From the NCBI RefSeq assembly GCF_016888135.1, contig NZ_JACSWB010000167.1, positions 1-64,000 on the forward strand: DNA of 64,000 bases, read 5' to 3'. The position numbers and the translations under genes are program-made. Under the pieces are notes generated by a model that made no database searches, was not told the DNA's origin, and saw nothing but the letters and a program-made list of their open reading frames with translations. Positions 208 to 29,434 of this stretch are shown in pieces; positions within the stretch are counted from its first letter, which is position 1; every line of letters starts with the position of its first letter. The DNA is from Leptolyngbya sp. CCY15150. Its GTDB lineage: Bacteria; Cyanobacteriota; Cyanobacteriia; RECH01.

Positions 208-1449
208 ATGGTAGTCTTCTACGATAACGCTCTCATTGCCGCGAGAAACCCCGTGACTGCTGAGATTTACACCTACAACTTCCCAACCCGGATTCGATTT
301 GGTGCTGGTGCCCGCACAGAGCTTTCCCAGACCTTAGCCCAGATCGGCATCCATCGACCGATGATTGTCACCGATCGCGATGTAGTCACCCTGCCTTGGT
401 TTTCCGAGATTCCCGATGCACTCACCTTGCCCGTCGCCACCTTCAGCGGCGTCTGGGGCAATCCGGTGGTCTCCCAGGTTGGGGCAGGGCTTAGGACATG
501 GCAAGAACATGGTGCCGATGGCATTGTGGCTATTGGTGGCGGTGCGCCGATGGATGTGGCCAAGGCGATCGCCCTCATGGCTAACCATCCGGGGCATTTG
601 TTTGACTACGAGGATGGTAAACCAGACGGGCGATCGGTGGATCAACCTGTGCCGCCCATTGTGGCGATTCCTACGACCGCAGGCACGGGCAGCGAAGTGG
701 GGCGCAGCACCGTGATCTCTGATGATCAGACCCATGCCAAAAAAATTATGTTCGACCCTCAGCTCCTGCCCGCTGTGGTGCTAGCCGATCCGGAGTTGCT
801 GCTGGGGCTGCCGGCAGGGATCACCGCCGCTACGGGCATGGATGCCTTGACCCATTTAATTGAAGCCTATTTAGCTAAGGGATATCATCCTATCTGTGAT
901 GGCATTGCCCTAGAGGGAATAAGTTTGGTTGCCCAGCATCTAACCAACTGTGTACAGTTTGCCCGACGGCAAAGGGCAGGGGAGATGCTGACGCCGGAAG
1001 ACCATCAGGCACACCTAGCTGCACGGGGCGGGATGCTCAATGCTTCTATGATGGGAGCGATCGCGTTCCAAAAAGGTCTGGGGGTGACTCATTCCTGTGC
1101 CCATGCCTTATCTACGGTGTGTAATACTCACCACGGGCTAGCGAATGGGGTGATGCTATCGGCGGCAATGCGATTCAATATTGTCACCGAGGGCGATCGC
1201 TTTTTGCGGATGGCGCGGGTGGTGAACCCCTTGGCCACCAGTGGCTATCAGTTTCTGGAATGGATTGATGCCTTGCGGATGGGTATCGGCATACCCGGCA
1301 CCTTAACGGAGCTAGAGGTTTCATCTGACGTTCTAGATAAGTTGGTGATGGTGGCAGAACAGGATGGCTGCCATCCCCTCAACCCACGCCCGGTGACTAA
1401 GGATGATTTCTACGCCATTTACCAGGATGCCTTAGGCGCTGCTCCATGA
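208..1449 (+). CDS. Iron-containing alcohol dehydrogenase family protein
   Basis: A group III (Fe-dependent) NAD(P)-linked alcohol dehydrogenase, which interconverts a primary alcohol and an aldehyde in the cytoplasm. The N-terminal YNFPTRIRFGAG strand is typical of the family. It is followed by the nucleotide-binding GGGAPMDVAK loop and PTTAGTGSEV. The metal-binding helices contain GMDALTHLIEAY and THSCAHALS...HHGLANG, which supply the conserved Asp/His ligands. At about 400 residues it has normal length. The ATG at 208 is chosen; GTG at 253, just before the conserved strand, or GTG at 112 are alternatives. The next gene, an aldehyde dehydrogenase, starts 25 bases after the stop, so the pair probably forms a two-step alcohol-aldehyde-acid oxidation or its reverse. 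The substrate cannot be read from sequence. Confidence 0.88.
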   Translation: MVVFYDNALIAARNPVTAEIYTYNFPTRIRFGAGARTELSQTLAQIGIHRPMIVTDRDVVTLPWFSEIPDALTLPVATFSGVWGNPVVSQVGAGLRTWQEHGADGIVAIGGGAPMDVAKAIALMANHPGHLFDYEDGKPDGRSVDQPVPPIVAIPTTAGTGSEVGRSTVISDDQTHAKKIMFDPQLLPAVVLADPELLLGLPAGITAATGMDALTHLIEAYLAKGYHPICDGIALEGISLVAQHLTNCVQFARRQRAGEMLTPEDHQAHLAARGGMLNASMMGAIAFQKGLGVTHSCAHALSTVCNTHHGLANGVMLSAAMRFNIVTEGDRFLRMARVVNPLATSGYQFLEWIDALRMGIGIPGTLTELEVSSDVLDKLVMVAEQDGCHPLNPRPVTKDDFYAIYQDALGAAP

Positions 1450-16743: not shown

Positions 16744-17415
16744 TTATGGACTAACTGCATCTTGAATAGCCAGTTGAAGATCATCGGGAATAAAGACTGC
16801 ATACATACCGCGTAGATCGCCCACTTGGAAGTCGAAGGCTAAATCTTGGGGATAGTTATCTTTGACAAACTGAGGACGGTTATTCTGTAACCCGTGACAG
16901 GCCAGACAACTCGCCTCCACATCAATGCGGCGATAGTAGCGACTGCCGCTTTGGTCTGCAAGGGTTTCTCGATCCCAAAACCCTACCAGATCTGGATTCT
17001 GCTCAAAGGCAGCGATCGCCATCCTTGCATGTAAGTTATCCGGTGCATGGGCTGGGTTACGATACTTGCTGGCCAGTTGCTTGACCTGCCATCCGTTTTC
17101 TTGACTCAGTTGCTTTGCCCGCATCCCCACCGGCCGGCAAACCTCTTTCATCGTCTGCATGGTCGGTTCGTCGGTGCTGCCCTCCAAGGACGAGGCTAGC
17201 CCTGAACGTAGGCCATCCAAATTTTCAATTTCCTGCACCGCCCGCGCCAGGTCATCTGTATGCGGAACCGTAGGCGCAGCTAGAGCGATCGCCTGTGCCC
17301 CCAACAGCCATACCACCACTCCCGTCAGCAAGATGGTCGCTACCTTGTTCCGAATAGAGCTCCCCCATGGATAGCATCTCGACCCTAGCCGCTTCCAGAA
17401 TGTTGTCCAGTTCAT
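16744..17415 (-). CDS. Tll0287-like (DUF3365) exported c-type haem protein
   Basis: A 223-residue protein with an N-terminal membrane or signal segment (about residues 27-47, VATILLTGVVVWLLGAQAIA). It is followed by a Tll0287-type sensor fold: ARAVQEIENLDGLRSGL, EVCRPVGMRAKQL and FWDRETLADQSG. A CLACH motif (ECxxCH-like CxxCH) would bind haem c covalently. Tll0287 of Thermosynechococcus has a PAS-like haem fold and is thought to sense redox state or light. GAGGG lies 7 bases before ATG 17415, which decides the start. The DUF3122 gene follows in the same direction. Likely lumenal or periplasmic. Confidence 0.8.
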   Translation of the reverse strand: MNWTTFWKRLGSRCYPWGSSIRNKVATILLTGVVVWLLGAQAIALAAPTVPHTDDLARAVQEIENLDGLRSGLASSLEGSTDEPTMQTMKEVCRPVGMRAKQLSQENGWQVKQLASKYRNPAHAPDNLHARMAIAAFEQNPDLVGFWDRETLADQSGSRYYRRIDVEASCLACHGLQNNRPQFVKDNYPQDLAFDFQVGDLRGMYAVFIPDDLQLAIQDAVSP

Positions 17416-17522
17416 CCCAAGACCCTCAGTTACAATGCGCCAGCAGCACGATCGCCCATCAATCGTCTGCACAAATATAACTATATGGTGTTATGGCTAT
17501 GTCGTCAATTTGTAAGGGCTCC

Positions 17523-18551: not shown

Positions 18552-18555
18552 ATGA
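18496..18555 (+). CDS. 19-codon upstream reading overlapping the kinase start (ATGA)
   Basis: ATG at 18496 opens a 19-codon frame ending in TGA at 18553-18555, sharing the ATGA of the kinase start at 18552. The arrangement would couple translation of the kinase to the short frame. There is no ribosome site or family match, so it is possibly chance. Confidence 0.18.
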   Translation: MPNPSLETNAATLLSSQGL

Positions 18556-20828
18556 CATCCCCTAACGCCAATCTTCTGGTTATTGATGATCAAGTCGATC
18601 ACGTGCGGATGATGTCGGCCCTCTTGGTTCAGCATGGCTACGACGTGCGCAAAGCTCTTTCGGGCAGAATGGCACTCAGTACCATCCAGGCAGAGCGGCC
18701 AGACTTGATCTTGCTGGATGTTCGGATGCCGGACATGGATGGCTATGAACTCTGCGCCACCCTCAAGTCTCAACCGGATACCTGCGATATTCCCGTGATT
18801 TTCTTGAGCGCCGAGGATCAAAGCCAGGAAAAGGTTCGGGCCTTTGAGGTGGGTGCCGTGGATTACATCACGAAACCCGTGCAAACCGGGGAAATCCTAG
18901 CGCGTATCTCTTGCCAGCTCACGATTGTGCGCCAAAAGCAACAGCTTTTAGACCAAAATAAGCGCTTGCAGCAGCAGGAAGACTTGATGCGTCAGAGCAT
19001 GCGGCAAGAGCGGCTATTGCGTCTGATTACCCAGCGGATTCGCCAATCTCTCCAGCTCCAAGACGTTCTCAATGTGGCGGTGTCGGAGGTGCAGCAACTG
19101 CTGTCTAACGATCGCGCTTTGATTTTCCGTTTTCAGACCGACTGGAGCGGCACGGTGATCGCCGAAGCTGTCAGCGATCCAGCCTTGAGCATCATTGGCG
19201 AAACCATCCATGATCCCTGCTTTGCCTCAGATTGGCACCGTCCTTATGAACAGGGACATATCCGCGCCATTGATGACGTCACACAATCATCGCTGCAGGC
19301 CTGCCATGTTGAGATGCTGGAGAGCTTACAGGTTAAGGCCAATCTGGTGGTGCCCATTTTGCAAGCTGAGAATCTATGGGGCTTGTTAATTGTGCAGCAC
19401 TGCAAACAGCCTCGGGCTTGGCAGTCTTGGGAAGCCTCGATGCTCCAGCAATTGGCGGGGCAACTGGCGATCGCCATTCAGCAGTCAGAACTCCACCACC
19501 AGCTTCAGCATCTGAATAACGATCTAGAGCGTCAGGTGAAAGCTCGCACCACCGAACTCCAGATTGCCTTTGAGTTTGAAGACACCCTGAAGCGGATTAC
19601 CGACAAGGTGCGCGACACCTTGGATGAAGATCTGATTCTCGAAACCGCCGTGCGCGAACTTACCCAGGCTTTGGGTGTCTGCGGCTGCAACGCCTCTCGC
19701 TACAATCTACAAACCGGACTAGCCACGGTAGTCTATGAATACACCACATTACCCGGTGGAGATTACAAAGACCGGAGTGTGGCGCTTTCAGCCTTTCCAG
19801 AACTCTATCAGCCTCTCATGCAGGGCGAGTCGATTCAATTCTGTTCCCTCTTATCCAATGTCGATCGCGGCCCAGTGGTCTCCTTAGCTTGTCCTATCTT
19901 TGATGACCAAGGCATTCTTGGCGATCTTTGGTTAATTGATCATACCTACCAGGCCCGCTCGGAGCAGGATCTACGGTTGGTGCGACAGGTGGCCAATCAA
20001 TGTGCGATCGCCATCCGTCAAGCTCGGCTTTATCAATCGGCCCAGGCCCAGGTGCAAAATCTCGAACGCCTTAATCTCCTCAAGGATGATTTCCTGAGCA
20101 CCATTTCCCACGAACTGCGCACCCCCCTAGCCAGTATTCGCGTCGCCACCCAGATGCTGCAAATTACCTTCGAGCAACTGGGGATCACCGACGAGCGGGC
20201 CAATCGCTACCTAAGCATTCTCCACCAGGAATCGATTCAAGAGATTTCCTTGATCAACGATCTGCTGGACTTGCAGCATCTGGATGCTGGTACCAAGCCT
20301 TTAGAACTCGACACCATTGATCTCAAAGCATGGTCAGCTTCCATCGTAGACACCTTTCAAATTCGGGCAGAAGCCCAGCAGCAGAACTTTGAAGCCGAGA
20401 TTGCCGAAGACTTGCCGCCCATTGTCACCGATCCGGCTAGCCTCAAGCGGATCATGACCGAATTGCTGAACAATGCCTGTAAATACACACCACCGGGCGA
20501 TCGCATCCTGCTGGCTGTGCAGGTCAAAGACAACCAGCTCCACCTAAGGTTTCAAAACTTTGGCGTGCAGATTCCTGACAGTGAACTGCCCTATATTTTC
20601 GATAAGTTCTATCGCATCACCAATAGCGATCGCTGGAAACACGGCGGCACCGGCCTAGGCCTGACCCTCACGAAGAAATTGGTGGAATATCTCGGTGGCA
20701 CCATCCAGGTCTACTCCCCAGAGCAATCAACCTGTTTCACCATTTGTCTGCCCCTCCGCCCCGCTCGCCTGCCGGAGGAGGATTGGTTACTCGCCGATAT
20801 GTTGACCGATGACCATTACAACCGATGA
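18552..20828 (+). CDS. Receiver-GAF-GAF histidine kinase; first GAF is a candidate DXCF cyanobacteriochrome
   Basis: A 758-residue soluble reversed hybrid kinase. Receiver domain: residues 6-122, phosphoacceptor Asp56 in LLDVRMPDMDGYE, Lys108 in TKP. A coiled linker follows. GAF1 (about 150-312) carries HDPCF with Cys223 and ACH with Cys251, 28 residues apart, plus VKANLVVPIL and LWGLLIVQHC. This is the pattern of dual-cysteine (DXCF) cyanobacteriochromes such as TePixJ, where the second Cys holds the bilin and the first forms a reversible link. GAF2 (about 340-492) lacks these residues. HisKA has SHELRTPLAS with His520; the ATPase domain has ELLNNACKYTP and GGTGLGLTL. No membrane helix is present. 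It lies upstream of the Mo-hydroxylase operon on the same strand. Bilin binding is inferred, not shown. Confidence 0.88.
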   Translation: MTSPNANLLVIDDQVDHVRMMSALLVQHGYDVRKALSGRMALSTIQAERPDLILLDVRMPDMDGYELCATLKSQPDTCDIPVIFLSAEDQSQEKVRAFEVGAVDYITKPVQTGEILARISCQLTIVRQKQQLLDQNKRLQQQEDLMRQSMRQERLLRLITQRIRQSLQLQDVLNVAVSEVQQLLSNDRALIFRFQTDWSGTVIAEAVSDPALSIIGETIHDPCFASDWHRPYEQGHIRAIDDVTQSSLQACHVEMLESLQVKANLVVPILQAENLWGLLIVQHCKQPRAWQSWEASMLQQLAGQLAIAIQQSELHHQLQHLNNDLERQVKARTTELQIAFEFEDTLKRITDKVRDTLDEDLILETAVRELTQALGVCGCNASRYNLQTGLATVVYEYTTLPGGDYKDRSVALSAFPELYQPLMQGESIQFCSLLSNVDRGPVVSLACPIFDDQGILGDLWLIDHTYQARSEQDLRLVRQVANQCAIAIRQARLYQSAQAQVQNLERLNLLKDDFLSTISHELRTPLASIRVATQMLQITFEQLGITDERANRYLSILHQESIQEISLINDLLDLQHLDAGTKPLELDTIDLKAWSASIVDTFQIRAEAQQQNFEAEIAEDLPPIVTDPASLKRIMTELLNNACKYTPPGDRILLAVQVKDNQLHLRFQNFGVQIPDSELPYIFDKFYRITNSDRWKHGGTGLGLTLTKKLVEYLGGTIQVYSPEQSTCFTICLPLRPARLPEEDWLLADMLTDDHYNR

Positions 20829-21120: not shown

Positions 21121-21163
21121 GTATGGGGGAATACACTTTCCTCTCCCTAGAGACCGCTATGGT
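21121..21163 (+). promoter_or_regulatory. Candidate NtcA-activated promoter of the Mo-hydroxylase operon
   Basis: GTA-TGGGGGAA-TAC (21121-21134) is an exact GTA-N8-TAC NtcA site. It is followed after 23 bases by TATGGT (21158-21163), a TAN3T -10. The known NtcA class II layout is the same box 20-24 bases from the -10. Transcription would start near 21170, just before ATG 21189. The bare box is expected by chance several times in a window of this size, but the correct spacing and position make this one plausible. Confidence 0.5.
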
Positions 21164-21188
21164 GGAGGGTGCTAGATACTCAGCCACC

Positions 21189-22004
21189 ATGGACTTACAC
21201 AGTGTTGATACCTATCGCCGCCCCAAAAACCTCCAAGAACTGGGGGATTGGCAACCTACTTGGGCTTGGCTAGCCGGAGGCACCTGGCTGTTTACCGAAC
21301 CCCAACCCCAAGTGCAAACCTTGGTGGATATGCAGGAGTTAGGCTGGGACGAACTCACGGTGACCCCTGCCGGTTTGACCATTGGAGCCACCTGCCCCAT
21401 GCAGCGGCTGATCAGCGATCGCCTCCCAGAACCCTGGACTGCTATGCAGGCCCTGCAGCGGGGCGTGCAGGAACTGGCATCGTTCAAAGTGCAAACCCTG
21501 GCGACCGTGGCGGGCAATCTTTGCTTGGCGCTACCGGCGGGTACCTTTGCGCCGGTGATGGTGCTGCTGGACGCCGAGTATGAGCTGTGGACACCAGCGG
21601 GGGCGATGCGGCGGGTGCCGGCTCAGCAGTTTCAAACGGGGGCAAGGCAGACGATCTTGCAGCCGGGGGAAGTGTTGCGCTTTATGCATATTCCTGCCCA
21701 GACCATGGACTGGGCCACCAGCTATCACCGATTTTGTACAGCATCAGCGGGGTTGGCGATCGCTCTGGTCACAGCAGCCTACGATCCCGTGGCGCAACGG
21801 GTCAGGTTTTGTATCGGTGCATCGGTGGGCCGGCCCTACCTGGTGCAAGCCGAGGGCATCCCCACGATCGCTCAGCTTGCCGATTTATTAGACGCCCAGA
21901 TTCCCGCCAGCGCCTACCTCGACGACACCCTGGCCAGCGCTGCCTATCGTCGTCATCTCACCCAGGTGCTGATGGCGCGATCGCTCTCTGACCTGCCCTG
22001 TTAA
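21189..22004 (+). CDS. Molybdenum hydroxylase FAD-binding (medium) subunit
   Basis: A 271-residue FAD_binding_5 / CO dehydrogenase flavoprotein type subunit, which passes electrons from the Mo subunit's Fe-S clusters to NAD+ or another acceptor. Visible features are DTYRRPKNLQEL, the FAD-binding WLAGGTWL, and LTIGATCPMQ and VQTLATVAGNLCLALPAGT (the usual TVGGN/GN segment). The C-terminal subdomain includes FCIGASVGRPYL. The start at 21189 fits the family and lies downstream of the NtcA-type promoter; the readings upstream would start inside that site. The fused Fe-S/Mo subunit follows after 9 bases, so the two are cotranscribed. Confidence 0.85.
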   Translation: MDLHSVDTYRRPKNLQELGDWQPTWAWLAGGTWLFTEPQPQVQTLVDMQELGWDELTVTPAGLTIGATCPMQRLISDRLPEPWTAMQALQRGVQELASFKVQTLATVAGNLCLALPAGTFAPVMVLLDAEYELWTPAGAMRRVPAQQFQTGARQTILQPGEVLRFMHIPAQTMDWATSYHRFCTASAGLAIALVTAAYDPVAQRVRFCIGASVGRPYLVQAEGIPTIAQLADLLDAQIPASAYLDDTLASAAYRRHLTQVLMARSLSDLPC

Positions 22005-22013
22005 TCCCTGCAC

Positions 22014-24782
22014 ATGCCACCTATGACAGAGTCTTTTTCCCTTCAGGTTAACCATCAAGCCCATGCCGTCTCCTGTGCAGCGGGTAGCAGTCTCCTCGGT
22101 TTGCTGCGCCAGCAGGGCTATGTGGGGGTGCATCGGGTCTGTGAAACTGGCGACTGTGGTAGCTGTACCGTCTGGGTGGATGGCGAGGCGGTGCATAGCT
22201 GTATTTATCCTGCTCGGCGGGCTGAGGGGCGATCGCTGACCACCATTGAAGGGCTGGGCGGCGACAGTCCCATGCAGCGGGCTTTTCTGCAGGAACAGGG
22301 GTTTCAGTGTGGCTACTGCACGCCGGGCATGATCATGAGTGCGGAGAAGATGACCGCCACCACCCCGGAGGCGATTCGCCAGCAGATGGACGGCAACCTC
22401 TGCCGCTGCACCGGCTATCAGGCGATTGTGGCTAGTATTGCGGCGGGTAAACAGGGCGTAGATCGGACATCCGAGACTAGTCTCTGCGATCGCGTCGGTG
22501 AGAATGTTCCGAAGCAGGATGGCCCAGACATCGTCAGCGGCGCGCCGGTTTACACCGATGATATTGCTCCAGCGGGATTGCTGCACCTGAAGGTGGTGCG
22601 ATCGCCCCATGCCCATGCCCGTCTACGGCGCATTAACACCGAGAAGGCAACGGCCCTGCCCGGTGTGGTGCTGGTGCTGACCCATAAGGACGTGGAACGT
22701 CGCCCCTATTCCACCGCTGGCCACGGTGCGCCGGTGCCCGATCCCCACGATCATTATCTGCTGGACAACAAAGTTCGGTTTGTGGGCGATCGCGTGGCGG
22801 CGGTGGTGGCTGAAACTGAAGCGATCGCCCTCCAGGCCTGTGCGTTAATCGACGTAGACTACGAACTATTGCCCCCGGTGCTCGATCCGGTGCTGGCCAT
22901 GGGCGATCGCGCCCTGGAGATGCTGCCCGATCGATCGCCCCCGCCGGCCCCGCCCGTGATCCACGATGAGCCGGAGTCGTTCCAAATCCACGACGCGGCC
23001 CATAATATTGCCGGGGAGGTGCGTCTGGAAAAAGGGGACGTGGCCGCTGGGTTTGCCGCCGCTGATCTGGTGCTGGAACGTACCTACCAGCTTCCCGCCG
23101 TGCAGCATGCCCATCTAGAACCCCACGTCAGCCTCAGTTGGCTGGATGAGGATGGCACTCTAGTCGTACGCTCTAGCACCCAGGTACCCTTTCACTGCCA
23201 GCGCCTCCTGTCGGAACTCTTTGACCTGCCCTCGGATCGAATTCGGGTCTTTAAGGCCAAAATCGGCGGCGGCTTTGGCAATAAGCAGGAAATTCTCACC
23301 GAAGACCTCTGCGTCTGGGCCACGCTGAAAACTGGTCGCCCCGTGCGCTGGCAGTTTACTCGCCAGGAAGAATTCACCGCCACCACCAGCCGCCACGCCA
23401 CCCAGATCACCCTCAAAATTGGTATGACCCGCGACGGCACCCTCACTGCCATGGAGATGGGGGCGATCGCCAACACCGGAGCCTACGGCAACCACGGCAC
23501 CCAGGTGGTCTTTCTCACCGGCAGTATGCCCTTGGGGCTATATCGCTGCGCCCATCAGCGGTTTGTGGGGCGATCGGTCTACACCACCACCATGCCCGCT
23601 GGAGCCTTTCGCGGCTATGGGGCCACCCAAGGAGTATTTGCGGTCGAGTGCCATCTGGATGAAATGGCCGCCATTTTGGGATTAGACTCCCTTGACCTAC
23701 GACGACGCCAGGTGATCACCCCCCAGGATGAAATTTTGCTGGGCAGCGACCACCATTTTCACCTGATTGGCAGCTATGGTTTAGAGGAAGCTGTGGCCCG
23801 GGTGCAGCAGCGCTTGGGCAATTCTGCGCCGGTGGTCGAGGGATCGCGGCGGCGAGGCGTGGGGTTTGCGATCGCCATGCAGGGCAGTGGTTTAGCCAAA
23901 ATTCACGAGGCCCGGGTAAGCCTACGGCTGAAGCCTGATGGCCGCTACGAACTGCGCACCGGTGCCGTGGACGTGGGTACCGGCTCCGACACTACCCTGC
24001 GCCAGATCATTGCCGATCAGTTGAGCACCACCGTCGAGGCCATTGATCTAATCGCCGCCGATACCCAACAAACGCCCTTTGATGCTGGCTCCTACGCCTC
24101 TGCCACGCTGTATATTTCTGGAACCGCCTGCCTGCGTGCTGCCCAGGAGATGCGATCGCTGCTGCTGCACCAGGCCAGCCAGCTCTTGAACCTATCGCCT
24201 GCCGATCTATCCCTCGCCTCCACCCAGGTGATGGGGCCGACATCCCTGCCCCTGACCACCCTATCCGAGAAAGTGCTGGCCACCGGCGAAACCCTGACCG
24301 TGGAACAGTCCTACGCCGCCGATGCCTCCACTCTCACCTTCGCCGTGCAGGGCGTGGAAGTCGAGGTGGATCTGGACACCGGTCGGGTCACGGTGCTGCG
24401 CTGTGTGCAGGTGCTCGACATTGGTAAAGCCATCAACCCACGGATCTGCGAAGGCCAGGCCATTGGCGGTACGGTCATGGGTCTAGGCTATGCCCTCCAG
24501 GAAGAGCTGATCCGCGACAGTCAGGGGCAGACGGTCAATCCCCTGTTTCGCACCTACCGCCTGCCCCTAGCCAAGGAGGTGCCCCCGATTGAGATTGAAT
24601 TTATCGAACAGCCCGACCCCCACGGCCCCCTCGGCGCAAAAGGCATCGGGGAAATTGGCACTAACTGCACCGCACCTGCCGTCGCCAATGCCATCGCCCA
24701 GGCTATTGGCCAACGGCTCTACCAACTGCCCATGACCCCCGAACGGGTGTGGCGGGCTTTGCACGAACGCCATGACCCTTGA
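22014..24782 (+). CDS. Molybdenum hydroxylase: fused [2Fe-2S] and molybdopterin-binding subunits (xanthine dehydrogenase family)
   Basis: A 922-residue protein. Residues 1-150 form the small Fe-S subunit: a plant-type cluster CETGDCGSC...SC and a second cluster QCGYCTPG...NLCRCTGY. A short linker joins it to the 760-residue molybdopterin subunit (DIVSGAPVYTDDI...), with KIGGGFGNKQ, GAFRGYGATQG and the catalytic Glu in LGAKGIGEIGTN. GAFRGYG excludes the AYxCSFR loop of CO dehydrogenase. Fusion of small and large subunits without the FAD domain is less common than three chains. Substrate is not fixed by sequence; purines, nicotinate and aldehydes are candidates, and NtcA-type control favours a nitrogen compound. 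ATG 22014 or 22023. Confidence 0.88.
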   Translation: MPPMTESFSLQVNHQAHAVSCAAGSSLLGLLRQQGYVGVHRVCETGDCGSCTVWVDGEAVHSCIYPARRAEGRSLTTIEGLGGDSPMQRAFLQEQGFQCGYCTPGMIMSAEKMTATTPEAIRQQMDGNLCRCTGYQAIVASIAAGKQGVDRTSETSLCDRVGENVPKQDGPDIVSGAPVYTDDIAPAGLLHLKVVRSPHAHARLRRINTEKATALPGVVLVLTHKDVERRPYSTAGHGAPVPDPHDHYLLDNKVRFVGDRVAAVVAETEAIALQACALIDVDYELLPPVLDPVLAMGDRALEMLPDRSPPPAPPVIHDEPESFQIHDAAHNIAGEVRLEKGDVAAGFAAADLVLERTYQLPAVQHAHLEPHVSLSWLDEDGTLVVRSSTQVPFHCQRLLSELFDLPSDRIRVFKAKIGGGFGNKQEILTEDLCVWATLKTGRPVRWQFTRQEEFTATTSRHATQITLKIGMTRDGTLTAMEMGAIANTGAYGNHGTQVVFLTGSMPLGLYRCAHQRFVGRSVYTTTMPAGAFRGYGATQGVFAVECHLDEMAAILGLDSLDLRRRQVITPQDEILLGSDHHFHLIGSYGLEEAVARVQQRLGNSAPVVEGSRRRGVGFAIAMQGSGLAKIHEARVSLRLKPDGRYELRTGAVDVGTGSDTTLRQIIADQLSTTVEAIDLIAADTQQTPFDAGSYASATLYISGTACLRAAQEMRSLLLHQASQLLNLSPADLSLASTQVMGPTSLPLTTLSEKVLATGETLTVEQSYAADASTLTFAVQGVEVEVDLDTGRVTVLRCVQVLDIGKAINPRICEGQAIGGTVMGLGYALQEELIRDSQGQTVNPLFRTYRLPLAKEVPPIEIEFIEQPDPHGPLGAKGIGEIGTNCTAPAVANAIAQAIGQRLYQLPMTPERVWRALHERHDP

Positions 24783-25695
24783 GTTTTACCGCCAGGTGCT
24801 GGATGTCTTGTCCCAGGAACCGGTGGCGATCGCCACGGTCATCCACACCCAAGGATCGGTGCCCCGAGAGGTGGGAGCCATGATGGCGATCACGGGCGAT
24901 CGCACCTGGAATACCATCGGCGGCGGGGCGGGGGAGGCAGCGGTGATTGAGGCAGGCCGTGACGTGCTCCGTCAGGGAATGCCCCAGCGAGTGACCATTG
25001 ACCTGGCCGCTACGGCCCAGCCCGGTCGCCATGGGGTCTGTGGTGGCCAGATGCAGGTGTGGGTGGCTCCATGGGTGGGGGACGAGGCGATCGCTCTCCT
25101 CCAGACCCTGATCGCCCAGCTCAAGGCCGGTCATCCTGTGACCCTCACGGTACCCCTCACCGACACATTGCCTACCCTATCGATGACTCCCCTCAACCCA
25201 AGCGCGATCGCCCCCGATGGTCAGCAGTTCTTCCATGTTCTGCACCCCAGCCCCACCCTGCTGATTGTGGGAGCTGGGCATGTGGGTCTTGCCCTTGCTC
25301 GTCTAGCCCAGATGATTGACTTCCAAGTCTGGCTCCAGGACGATCGCTTGGACTTGCTTCAGACTCTGCCCCCCGGAGTCACCGGTTACGAAGCCCTCCC
25401 CGCCCTGCCCCCCACTAGCTACATCGCCCTAGTCACCCGCAGCTATCACCACGACCTCACAGCCCTGCGATCGCTGCTCCAAGCACCCACCCCCCGCTAT
25501 ATCGGCATGATTGGCAGTCGGGCGCGGATCCATCGGGTCTTTCAACAGTTGGCACAGGATGGCGTAGAGGGCGATCGCCTCTCGTCGATCCATGCCCCCA
25601 TCGGTCTCGATATCGGCGCACTCACCCCCGATGAAATCGCCGTCAGCATCGGTGCCCAGCTCATCCAAGTTCGTCGCCACTCTTCCACCCCATGA
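24772..25695 (+). CDS. XdhC/CoxI family molybdenum cofactor maturation protein
   Basis: A 307-residue protein that, by family, binds the molybdenum cofactor, protects it for sulfuration and inserts it into xanthine-dehydrogenase-type enzymes. The N-terminal XdhC/CoxI domain has ATVIHTQGSVPREVGAMM and TIGGGAGEAAV, with a conserved Cys in GVCGGQMQVW. The C-terminal Rossmann domain has LLIVGAGHVGLALARLA and GMIGSRARIHRVF...APIGLDIGA. It overlaps the end of the Mo subunit by 11 bases and the next gene by 4 (ATGA), so it is tightly coupled to the enzyme it matures. Confidence 0.88.
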   Translation: MTLEFYRQVLDVLSQEPVAIATVIHTQGSVPREVGAMMAITGDRTWNTIGGGAGEAAVIEAGRDVLRQGMPQRVTIDLAATAQPGRHGVCGGQMQVWVAPWVGDEAIALLQTLIAQLKAGHPVTLTVPLTDTLPTLSMTPLNPSAIAPDGQQFFHVLHPSPTLLIVGAGHVGLALARLAQMIDFQVWLQDDRLDLLQTLPPGVTGYEALPALPPTSYIALVTRSYHHDLTALRSLLQAPTPRYIGMIGSRARIHRVFQQLAQDGVEGDRLSSIHAPIGLDIGALTPDEIAVSIGAQLIQVRRHSSTP

Positions 25696-26300
25696 CCTAC
25701 GCCGCCATCCTCCTCGCCGCCGGTGCCTCCCGCCGTATGGGCCGCTGTAAGACCACCCTCCCATGGGGCGATCGCCCCTCTCTCCTTACCTACCAAACTG
25801 AACAGATACGCCAGGCCGGTCTCACGTCCATCGTAGTGCTGAGCCCCCACAACGCTCACCGCCAAGTAGACTGTGCTCCCAATACCCAGGTCGTGATTAA
25901 TCCTAATCCTGAACAAGGTAAGGTAAGCTCTATTCTTACTGGTCTTGCTTACCTTCCTACCCCAGTCACTGCCCTGTTTCTCTGCGCCATCGACCAACCT
26001 CGCCCCGCCGACCTGTACCTTGCCCTCATCAACGCCAACAAACGCCATGCTGCACCCATTACCGCCCCTGTACACCAGGGTAAACTTGGCCACCCCCTCC
26101 TATTCTCAGCCACTCTCCTGCCCCGTCTCCAGCAGATTCGAGATGAAACCCTCGGTCTACGGGCTGTGGTGCAGCAGGTCTACCCTCAGATCCATCGCCT
26201 AGAGTGGCCCTCTGCCCTGGTTCACCATGATCTCAATACCCCCGACGCCTACACTCAAGCCTATGCAGTGTCCCCATCAACATGTCGTAGTGATAGATAA
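25692..26300 (+). CDS. Molybdenum cofactor cytidylyltransferase-like protein (MocA family)
   Basis: A 202-residue nucleotidyltransferase with AAILLAAGASRRMGRCKTTLPWG and INPNPEQGKVSSI, followed by the metal-site segment FLCAIDQPRP and a later GHPLLFS. MocA adds CMP to molybdopterin, giving the cytosine dinucleotide form used by many XdhC-served hydroxylases; related proteins of this type may lack that activity. It differs clearly from mobA at 10712 (GMP form). ATGA overlap with the XdhC gene makes it the last gene of the operon. A hairpin with CGAGG/CCTCG arms lies right after the stop. Confidence 0.75.
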   Translation: MTYAAILLAAGASRRMGRCKTTLPWGDRPSLLTYQTEQIRQAGLTSIVVLSPHNAHRQVDCAPNTQVVINPNPEQGKVSSILTGLAYLPTPVTALFLCAIDQPRPADLYLALINANKRHAAPITAPVHQGKLGHPLLFSATLLPRLQQIRDETLGLRAVVQQVYPQIHRLEWPSALVHHDLNTPDAYTQAYAVSPSTCRSDR

Positions 26301-27904: not shown

Positions 27905-29434
27905 CTAATCAGGGGCGATCGCCCCTTGGGTTACGGGAATGGTAATTTGAAATTCGCAGCCCTGACTAGGGTGCGAGATGCAGCGAATTGTGCCGTGATG
28001 GTTTTCCGTGACAATTCTATAGCTGATGGCCAAGCCTAAACCCGTGCCTTCACCAATGGGCTTGGTGGTGAAAAAGGGATCAAACAGTCGAGGCTGGATG
28101 TCGGCAGGAATGCCTGGGCCATTGTCGGCGATCGCAATGGTAATTGCTGGCGACTGGGGGGCGATCGCTTCTGTGCAAAAGGTGCGAACGTTGATGCAGG
28201 GTTGGTCTAGCGTTCCTGTGCTTCGCAGCGCATCAATGGCATTGCTCAAGATGTTCATAAACACCTGGTTGAGCTGTCCCGGTAAACATTCCACCTGCGG
28301 TAAGTCTCCATAGTCGCGGACTACCTGAATGGCAGGATGGTGAGTGGTGGCCTTGAGTTGATGATGCAGGATGAGCAGGGTGCTATCAAGACCTTCGTGG
28401 ACATTCGCCCGTTTCATATCGGCTTCATCCAACCGAGAAAAGTTGCGAAGGGATAGGACAATTTGCCGAATGCGATCGGCTCCCACCTGCATTGATTTCA
28501 GGGTTGATAGGATGTCAATTTGCAGAAAGTCTAGATCAATATCCTCAATGCGATCGTGGATAGACTGCGGTGGATCGGGGTAGATCTGCTGGTAGAGATC
28601 AATCAGCTTGATCAAGTCTTGGGCATACTGCTGCGTATGCGATAGGTTGCCGTAAATAAAATTCACGGGATTGTTGATTTCATGGGCCACCCCCGCCACA
28701 AGCTGCCCCAGGCTGGACATTTTTTCATGCTGAATTAACTGGGTTTGGCTATGGCGCAAGTCTTGCAGCATCTCGGCTAGTTGATCTGCCTGTTGCCGAG
28801 TTGTTTCCAAAAGTTCTGCCTGCCGAATGGCTACACTCAGGTGGGTCGCCACCTGCTGGGCAAAGTGAATTTCCGCCGGACGCCATAGACGCGGGCGAGC
28901 GCATTGGTGAATGCAGAGGAGTCCCCAAAGATACTGGCCCTGCAGCAGCGGCACCACCAAGTTAGCCTGCACTTGGAACTGTTCCAAAATGCTGATGTGG
29001 CAAGGGCTGAGATGGGCTGCATAAATATCATCGATGGCGTAGACCTTGCCCTTTTGGTAGCGCTTGGCATAGCTTTCACCAAAGCAGTGATCATGCACCT
29101 TGGCAGCGATCGCCGATCGATAGGGAGGCACGACATCTTCCGACACAAAGACCCCATCATCCCAGCCTGAGTTGGGATGGAAGCGAAACACACCAACCCG
29201 ATCGGCGTTGAGGGTTTGCCGAACTTCCGTGGCGGTGGTCTGAAAAATAGTTGCTAAATCTAGAGATTCGCGAATCTTCGTGATCACGCGAAAGAGAATC
29301 GACTGTTGCCCCATCGGCAGCAGCGCGGGCACTGCGGGGCCAGAGGTTGCCAAAATCCGCTGGAGTTCAGCAAATGCATCATCATCTTGGCAATAGGCAT
29401 GAAGTTGAGTCAAAAACGCTGCATCCATAGCCAT
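27905..29434 (-). CDS. GAF histidine kinase; GAF is a candidate DXCF cyanobacteriochrome
   Basis: A 509-residue soluble kinase. A short N-terminal helical region is followed by GAF at about 45-207 with DRVGVFRF, HDHCF (Cys117) and SPCH (Cys145), exactly 28 residues apart. FQVQANLVVPLL and LWGLLCIHQCARPRLW come next. This is the dual-Cys DXCF cyanobacteriochrome pattern, so the domain probably binds a bilin and responds to blue/green-type light. The transmitter follows directly: SLGQLVAGVAHEINNPVNF (His251), NILSNAIDAL, DNGPGIPADI and GEGTGLGLAI. The transmitter is close to that of the kinase at 7591. There is no receiver domain and no neighbouring response regulator. ATG 29434, or 29428. Light response is inferred from motifs only. 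Confidence 0.88.
   Translation of the reverse strand: MAMDAAFLTQLHAYCQDDDAFAELQRILATSGPAVPALLPMGQQSILFRVITKIRESLDLATIFQTTATEVRQTLNADRVGVFRFHPNSGWDDGVFVSEDVVPPYRSAIAAKVHDHCFGESYAKRYQKGKVYAIDDIYAAHLSPCHISILEQFQVQANLVVPLLQGQYLWGLLCIHQCARPRLWRPAEIHFAQQVATHLSVAIRQAELLETTRQQADQLAEMLQDLRHSQTQLIQHEKMSSLGQLVAGVAHEINNPVNFIYGNLSHTQQYAQDLIKLIDLYQQIYPDPPQSIHDRIEDIDLDFLQIDILSTLKSMQVGADRIRQIVLSLRNFSRLDEADMKRANVHEGLDSTLLILHHQLKATTHHPAIQVVRDYGDLPQVECLPGQLNQVFMNILSNAIDALRSTGTLDQPCINVRTFCTEAIAPQSPAITIAIADNGPGIPADIQPRLFDPFFTTKPIGEGTGLGLAISYRIVTENHHGTIRCISHPSQGCEFQITIPVTQGAIAPD

Follow-up and report, generated by a model that had tools for sequence, protein, structure and literature searches.

The window, a 64,000-nucleotide stretch of DNA from Leptolyngbya sp. 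CCY15150, carries an intact open reading frame (18552..20828, forward strand, ATG start) encoding a predicted sensor histidine kinase of 758 residues, exactly where an earlier note on this DNA had placed it. Also as claimed there, a receiver domain stands at the N terminus (Pfam, residues 9–119), ahead of the first of two GAF domains, and it keeps all of the catalytic set D12, D13, D56, S86, and K108. GAF2 is a weaker Pfam match than GAF1 and lies between GAF1 and the HisKA domain. The protein appears to be soluble, in agreement with the same note, since no membrane-spanning stretch was evident across the 758 residues (19-residue hydropathy window, best mean 1.44). The features are as follows.

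18552..20828, +, whole gene, receiver-GAF1-GAF2-histidine kinase, 758 aa (ORF list and Pfam)
18576..18908, +, receiver domain, aa 9–119 (Pfam Response_reg, 2e-29)
18885..19046, +, predicted long helix joining receiver to GAF1, aa 112–165 (AlphaFold2 model)
19056..19478, +, GAF1, aa 169–309, DXCF dual-Cys cyanobacteriochrome-type (Pfam, sequence and structure alignment)
19155..19157, +, Val202, beta2 trapped-twist position (alignment; role of the position from PMC5240096)
19218..19220, +, Cys223 of DPCF, second Cys, opposite TePixJ C494 (alignment, predicted model)
19302..19304, +, Cys251 of ACH, canonical bilin Cys, opposite TePixJ C522 (alignment, predicted model)
19326..19328, +, Leu259, alpha4 trapped-twist position (alignment; role of the position from PMC5240096)
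19554..20036, +, GAF2, about aa 335–495, conserved C379, C431, C447, and C484 (domain search, conservation)
20082..20291, +, HisKA, aa 511–580, predicted phosphoacceptor His520 (Pfam, residue check)
20430..20759, +, HATPase_c, aa 627–736 (Pfam, residue check)

H520, N641, and the G2 glycines are all present in the kinase core. In the G1 box of the ATP lid, N669 (20556-20558, +) replaces the Asp typical of histidine kinases, a substitution common to 114 of 116 members of the GAF2-kinase family.

On the upstream side, one gene product has no Pfam match, and the others are a Tll0287-like haem protein with a CLACH haem-binding motif (16744-17472, −), a DUF3122 protein, a nitrate-reductase-associated protein, and a sigma factor. 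Genes for a molybdenum hydroxylase follow directly downstream (21123-26300, +), in a set that also includes XdhC and a MobA-like NTP transferase; the hydroxylase large subunit has an N-terminal 2Fe-2S part fused to molybdopterin domains. The order of kinase and molybdenum hydroxylase genes is kept in two congeneric genomes, while matching genes are absent beside more distant receiver-first homologues; the arrangement therefore looks like local synteny, and a functional tie between the two was rejected. No response regulator was recognized adjoining the kinase gene, and consensus scans, which are weak evidence, returned no promoter or terminator around it.

Assignment of GAF1

The earlier note had read from the sequence a DPCF motif (Cys223) and an ACH motif (Cys251) 28 residues apart in GAF1, together with ANLVVPIL and LWGLLI blocks, and had equated the two cysteines with C494 and C522 of TePixJ. 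The motif residues were found as described (D221-P-C223-F224, then C251-H252, with 28 residues between the cysteines), as were both blocks, and the pattern of DXCF with CH at 28 residues appeared in 0 of 200,000 random shuffles of the GAF1 residues. The top matches of GAF1 among solved structures were PPHK (5e-43) and TePixJ (2e-29), others being cyanobacteriochrome-derived fluorescent proteins and an RcaE-type GAF; its best PDB matches were cyanobacteriochrome-type GAF domains by both sequence and fold. Bilin GAFs as best matches, with cysteines aligned, are the opposite of the pattern that the note had set against its own proposal, namely a best match to non-bilin GAF domains with misaligned cysteines. 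In the alignment with TePixJ (PDB 3vv4), both GAF1 cysteines and the following His share columns without gaps. The predicted REC-GAF1 model (mean pLDDT 90) aligns over 149 residues with TePixJ (PDB 4glq), residues 165..313 on 436..584 at a constant offset of 271, so that C223 falls on 494 and C251 on 522; the equivalence with the TePixJ cysteines thus holds for sequence columns and for places in the predicted model. The host genome encodes two heme oxygenases and a protein scoring above the cut-off of the PcyA equivalog model, and the host can therefore make phycocyanobilin.

A quick-stage, poorly resolved tree of 147 GAF domains grouped GAF1 loosely with other DXCF GAFs, its neighbors there including some receiver-first proteins (L036, L056) and some degenerate domains. 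As judged from sequence, there is good support for identifying GAF1 as a candidate DXCF dual-cysteine cyanobacteriochrome, and hence for the photoreceptor reading; very probably the gene product responds to blue and green light via a bilin held by two cysteines.

Color tuning of the predicted photocycle

Conversion of phycocyanobilin to phycoviolobilin is typical of DXCF types (PMC11284453). In the red/green and teal-DXCF types, trapped-twist tuning has been linked to Phe residues at beta2 and helix alpha4 (PMC5240096). At these positions GAF1 has V202 and L259, lacking the Phe pair of the teal-DXCF and red/green (XRG) types, and in the alignment it resembles blue/green TePixJ and differs from NpR6012g4. 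Because Val202 and Leu259 stand where the teal and red/green types carry Phe, a green photoproduct is favored. The prediction of a blue dark state and a green photoproduct is moderately supported.

Q282 (19395-19397, +) sits in the bilin-pocket region of GAF1. The corresponding residue is His in 29 of 31 aligned receiver-first relatives and in TePixJ, Asn at the matching place in PPHK, and Gln in two congeneric species. This residue is an oddity counted against the blue/green DXCF reading, which we nevertheless consider likely. One alternative is a DXCF photoreceptor of another color, with a blue dark state and a teal, yellow, or orange photoproduct, the cause being either that the pigment stays phycocyanobilin or that the pocket is unlike that of TePixJ. 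Such an outcome would be in keeping with the diversity of DXCF photocycles, which run from blue to green, teal, yellow, or orange (PMC5240096), with Gln282 instead of the common His, and with Met255 instead of Q526 of TePixJ in the alignment, but the Val and Leu at the trapped-twist positions, as in blue/green TePixJ, speak against it; we regard it as unlikely, though with a chance worth keeping in mind.

Nine GAF domains with dual cysteines 27–29 residues apart were counted in the CCY15150 genome by targeted searches. The window itself holds a second kinase with a DXCF GAF (27905-29434, −, 509 aa, DHCF...CH 28 apart). This protein has Phe at both trapped-twist positions, and for it a teal-type photocycle is therefore predicted to be more likely than green.

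Receiver-first relatives, GAF2, and constraint

The earlier note had called the receiver-first order less usual, a point of interest that was not supported: PPHK has the same order, and many genomes of the class hold receiver-first relatives, with strong matches to REC+GAF1 (E below 1e-65) in 40 of 390, nearly all of them covering both domains. Rarity of the layout was rejected on this precedent and these matches. Cysteines occupy both positions in 12 of 31 aligned receiver-first proteins, 10 of these 12 keeping D-x-C-F; another 10 have the canonical Cys only, and 9 are without it, and the family therefore does lose pigment binding. Proteins from other cyanobacteria, among them L036, L047, L048, L063, and L064, likewise have the order REC-GAF-GAF-HK with both cysteines kept, at ∼41–47% identity to the CCY15150 kinase over REC+GAF1. 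Beside the L063, L064, and L036 loci, none of the window's neighbor genes was found, other signaling proteins excepted. The predicted combination of a leading receiver with a DXCF domain thus recurs among cyanobacteria; no earlier description of a receiver-first DXCF kinase was found in the literature.

The counterparts of the protein in two congeneric genomes are 96–97% identical to it and keep both cysteines, and whole-gene dN/dS against them is 0.04–0.07; the gene is therefore under purifying selection in congeneric genomes. Among the folded domains, GAF1 is the least constrained (dN/dS 0.11) and GAF2 the most (0.022). The last 19 residues (aa 740–758; 20769-20825, +) are unlike the rest of the protein, with dN/dS of about 1.2, a value that is only approximate for so few residues.

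Each of C379, C431, C447, and C484 of GAF2 is kept in 86–97% of 113 homologous GAF2-kinase modules, and all four occur together in 69. These cysteines may be of greater importance than the light switch, because modules of this GAF2-kinase kind are very widespread among cyanobacteria. They raise the possibility that GAF2 is a second sensor, of redox state, thiols, or a metal, the kinase then integrating phosphate, light, and redox; this would add to the preferred photoreceptor reading and not replace it. In its favor are the cysteine conservation, the lowest dN/dS of the protein's folded domains, and the precedent of Hik2/CSK, a cyanobacterial GAF kinase with a redox-active [3Fe-4S] cluster (PMC6949291). 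Against it, the cysteines are lost one at a time, unlike those of a shared metal site, and by predicted model and fold search GAF2 is a generic GAF, with PPHK and other GAFs as its nearest matches and no metal-site pointer among them. We give a sensory GAF2 a small chance. An Fe-S reading in particular drew no support from anything but the cysteine conservation. A literature search for cyanobacterial GAF kinases with three conserved cysteines found nothing. The fuller version, a kinase with three inputs (phosphate at the receiver, blue/green light at GAF1, and a thiol, metal, or redox signal at the four-cysteine GAF2, itself representing a large undescribed cyanobacterial sensor family), is slightly more doubtful again. 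That GAF1 holds no bilin, its cysteines being relics in a protein acting mainly through the receiver and GAF2, is highly improbable: pigment-less relatives exist and GAF1 is less constrained than GAF2, but its dN/dS is just 0.11, and in all three congeneric species the DXCF motif retains its Asp, Cys, and Phe and the canonical Cys is present with His behind it, residues that are gone in relatives that lost the function.

Proposed signaling and comparison with known photoreceptors

The reading that we prefer, and hold to be probable, is a soluble receiver-first sensor kinase with a DXCF dual-cysteine cyanobacteriochrome as its light input. GAF1 would bind phycocyanobilin through C251, and C223 would make an additional, light-labile thioether to its C10, so that the dark state absorbs blue; conversion of the pigment to phycoviolobilin is assumed and probable. 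Light would isomerize the pigment and the second bond would break, giving a green-absorbing state, and the change in GAF1 may pass along helices and by way of GAF2 reach the kinase core, where it would affect how far H520 is phosphorylated. A phosphate on D56 of the receiver could serve as a second input via the long linker helix, as has been described for PPHK. Weighing against this reading are Q282, the standing of GAF1 as the least constrained folded domain, the loss of the canonical Cys in relatives, and Asn669 of the G1 box; with these taken into account, it is still the one that we expect to hold.

If the preferred reading is right, the CCY15150 kinase has a dual-cysteine blue/green switch following its receiver, in the position taken in the solved example, PPHK, by a switch without the second cysteine. 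One could then ask whether the logic of combining phosphate with light also works with another photochemistry, and the protein would be a candidate part for optogenetics.

PPHK of Leptolyngbya sp. JSC-1 (PDB 6oap, 6oaq, and 6ob8) is, like the CCY15150 kinase, a histidine kinase that begins with a receiver and continues with a cyanobacteriochrome GAF, and it is the top match over REC+GAF1 (6oap; 296 residues, 38% identity, Z 25.8). As in PPHK, the receiver directly precedes the cyanobacteriochrome GAF, with a long predicted helix between them, in a histidine kinase. The study of PPHK reportedly arrived at a "logic OR" result. The two proteins differ in that PPHK has DQYF, hence no second Cys, where the CCY15150 kinase has DPCF; the solved PPHK chain stops after the first GAF. 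According to PMC11480761, PPHK responds to phosphorylation and is photosensitive, and its Pg state absorbs at 562 nm. The GAF of TePixJ (PDB 3vv4, 4fof, and 4glq), the type example of the DXCF blue/green cyanobacteriochromes, has both cysteines in register with GAF1 and has in common with it the His after the canonical Cys and the lack of Phe at the trapped-twist positions. Identity between the two is about 33% in the structural alignment, TePixJ having His where GAF1 has Q282, and TePixJ, whose annotation is that of a methyl-accepting chemotaxis protein, has an output unlike that of the CCY15150 kinase. The CCY15150 kinase is a sound but ordinary addition to a known photoreceptor class, with a layout close to that of PPHK.
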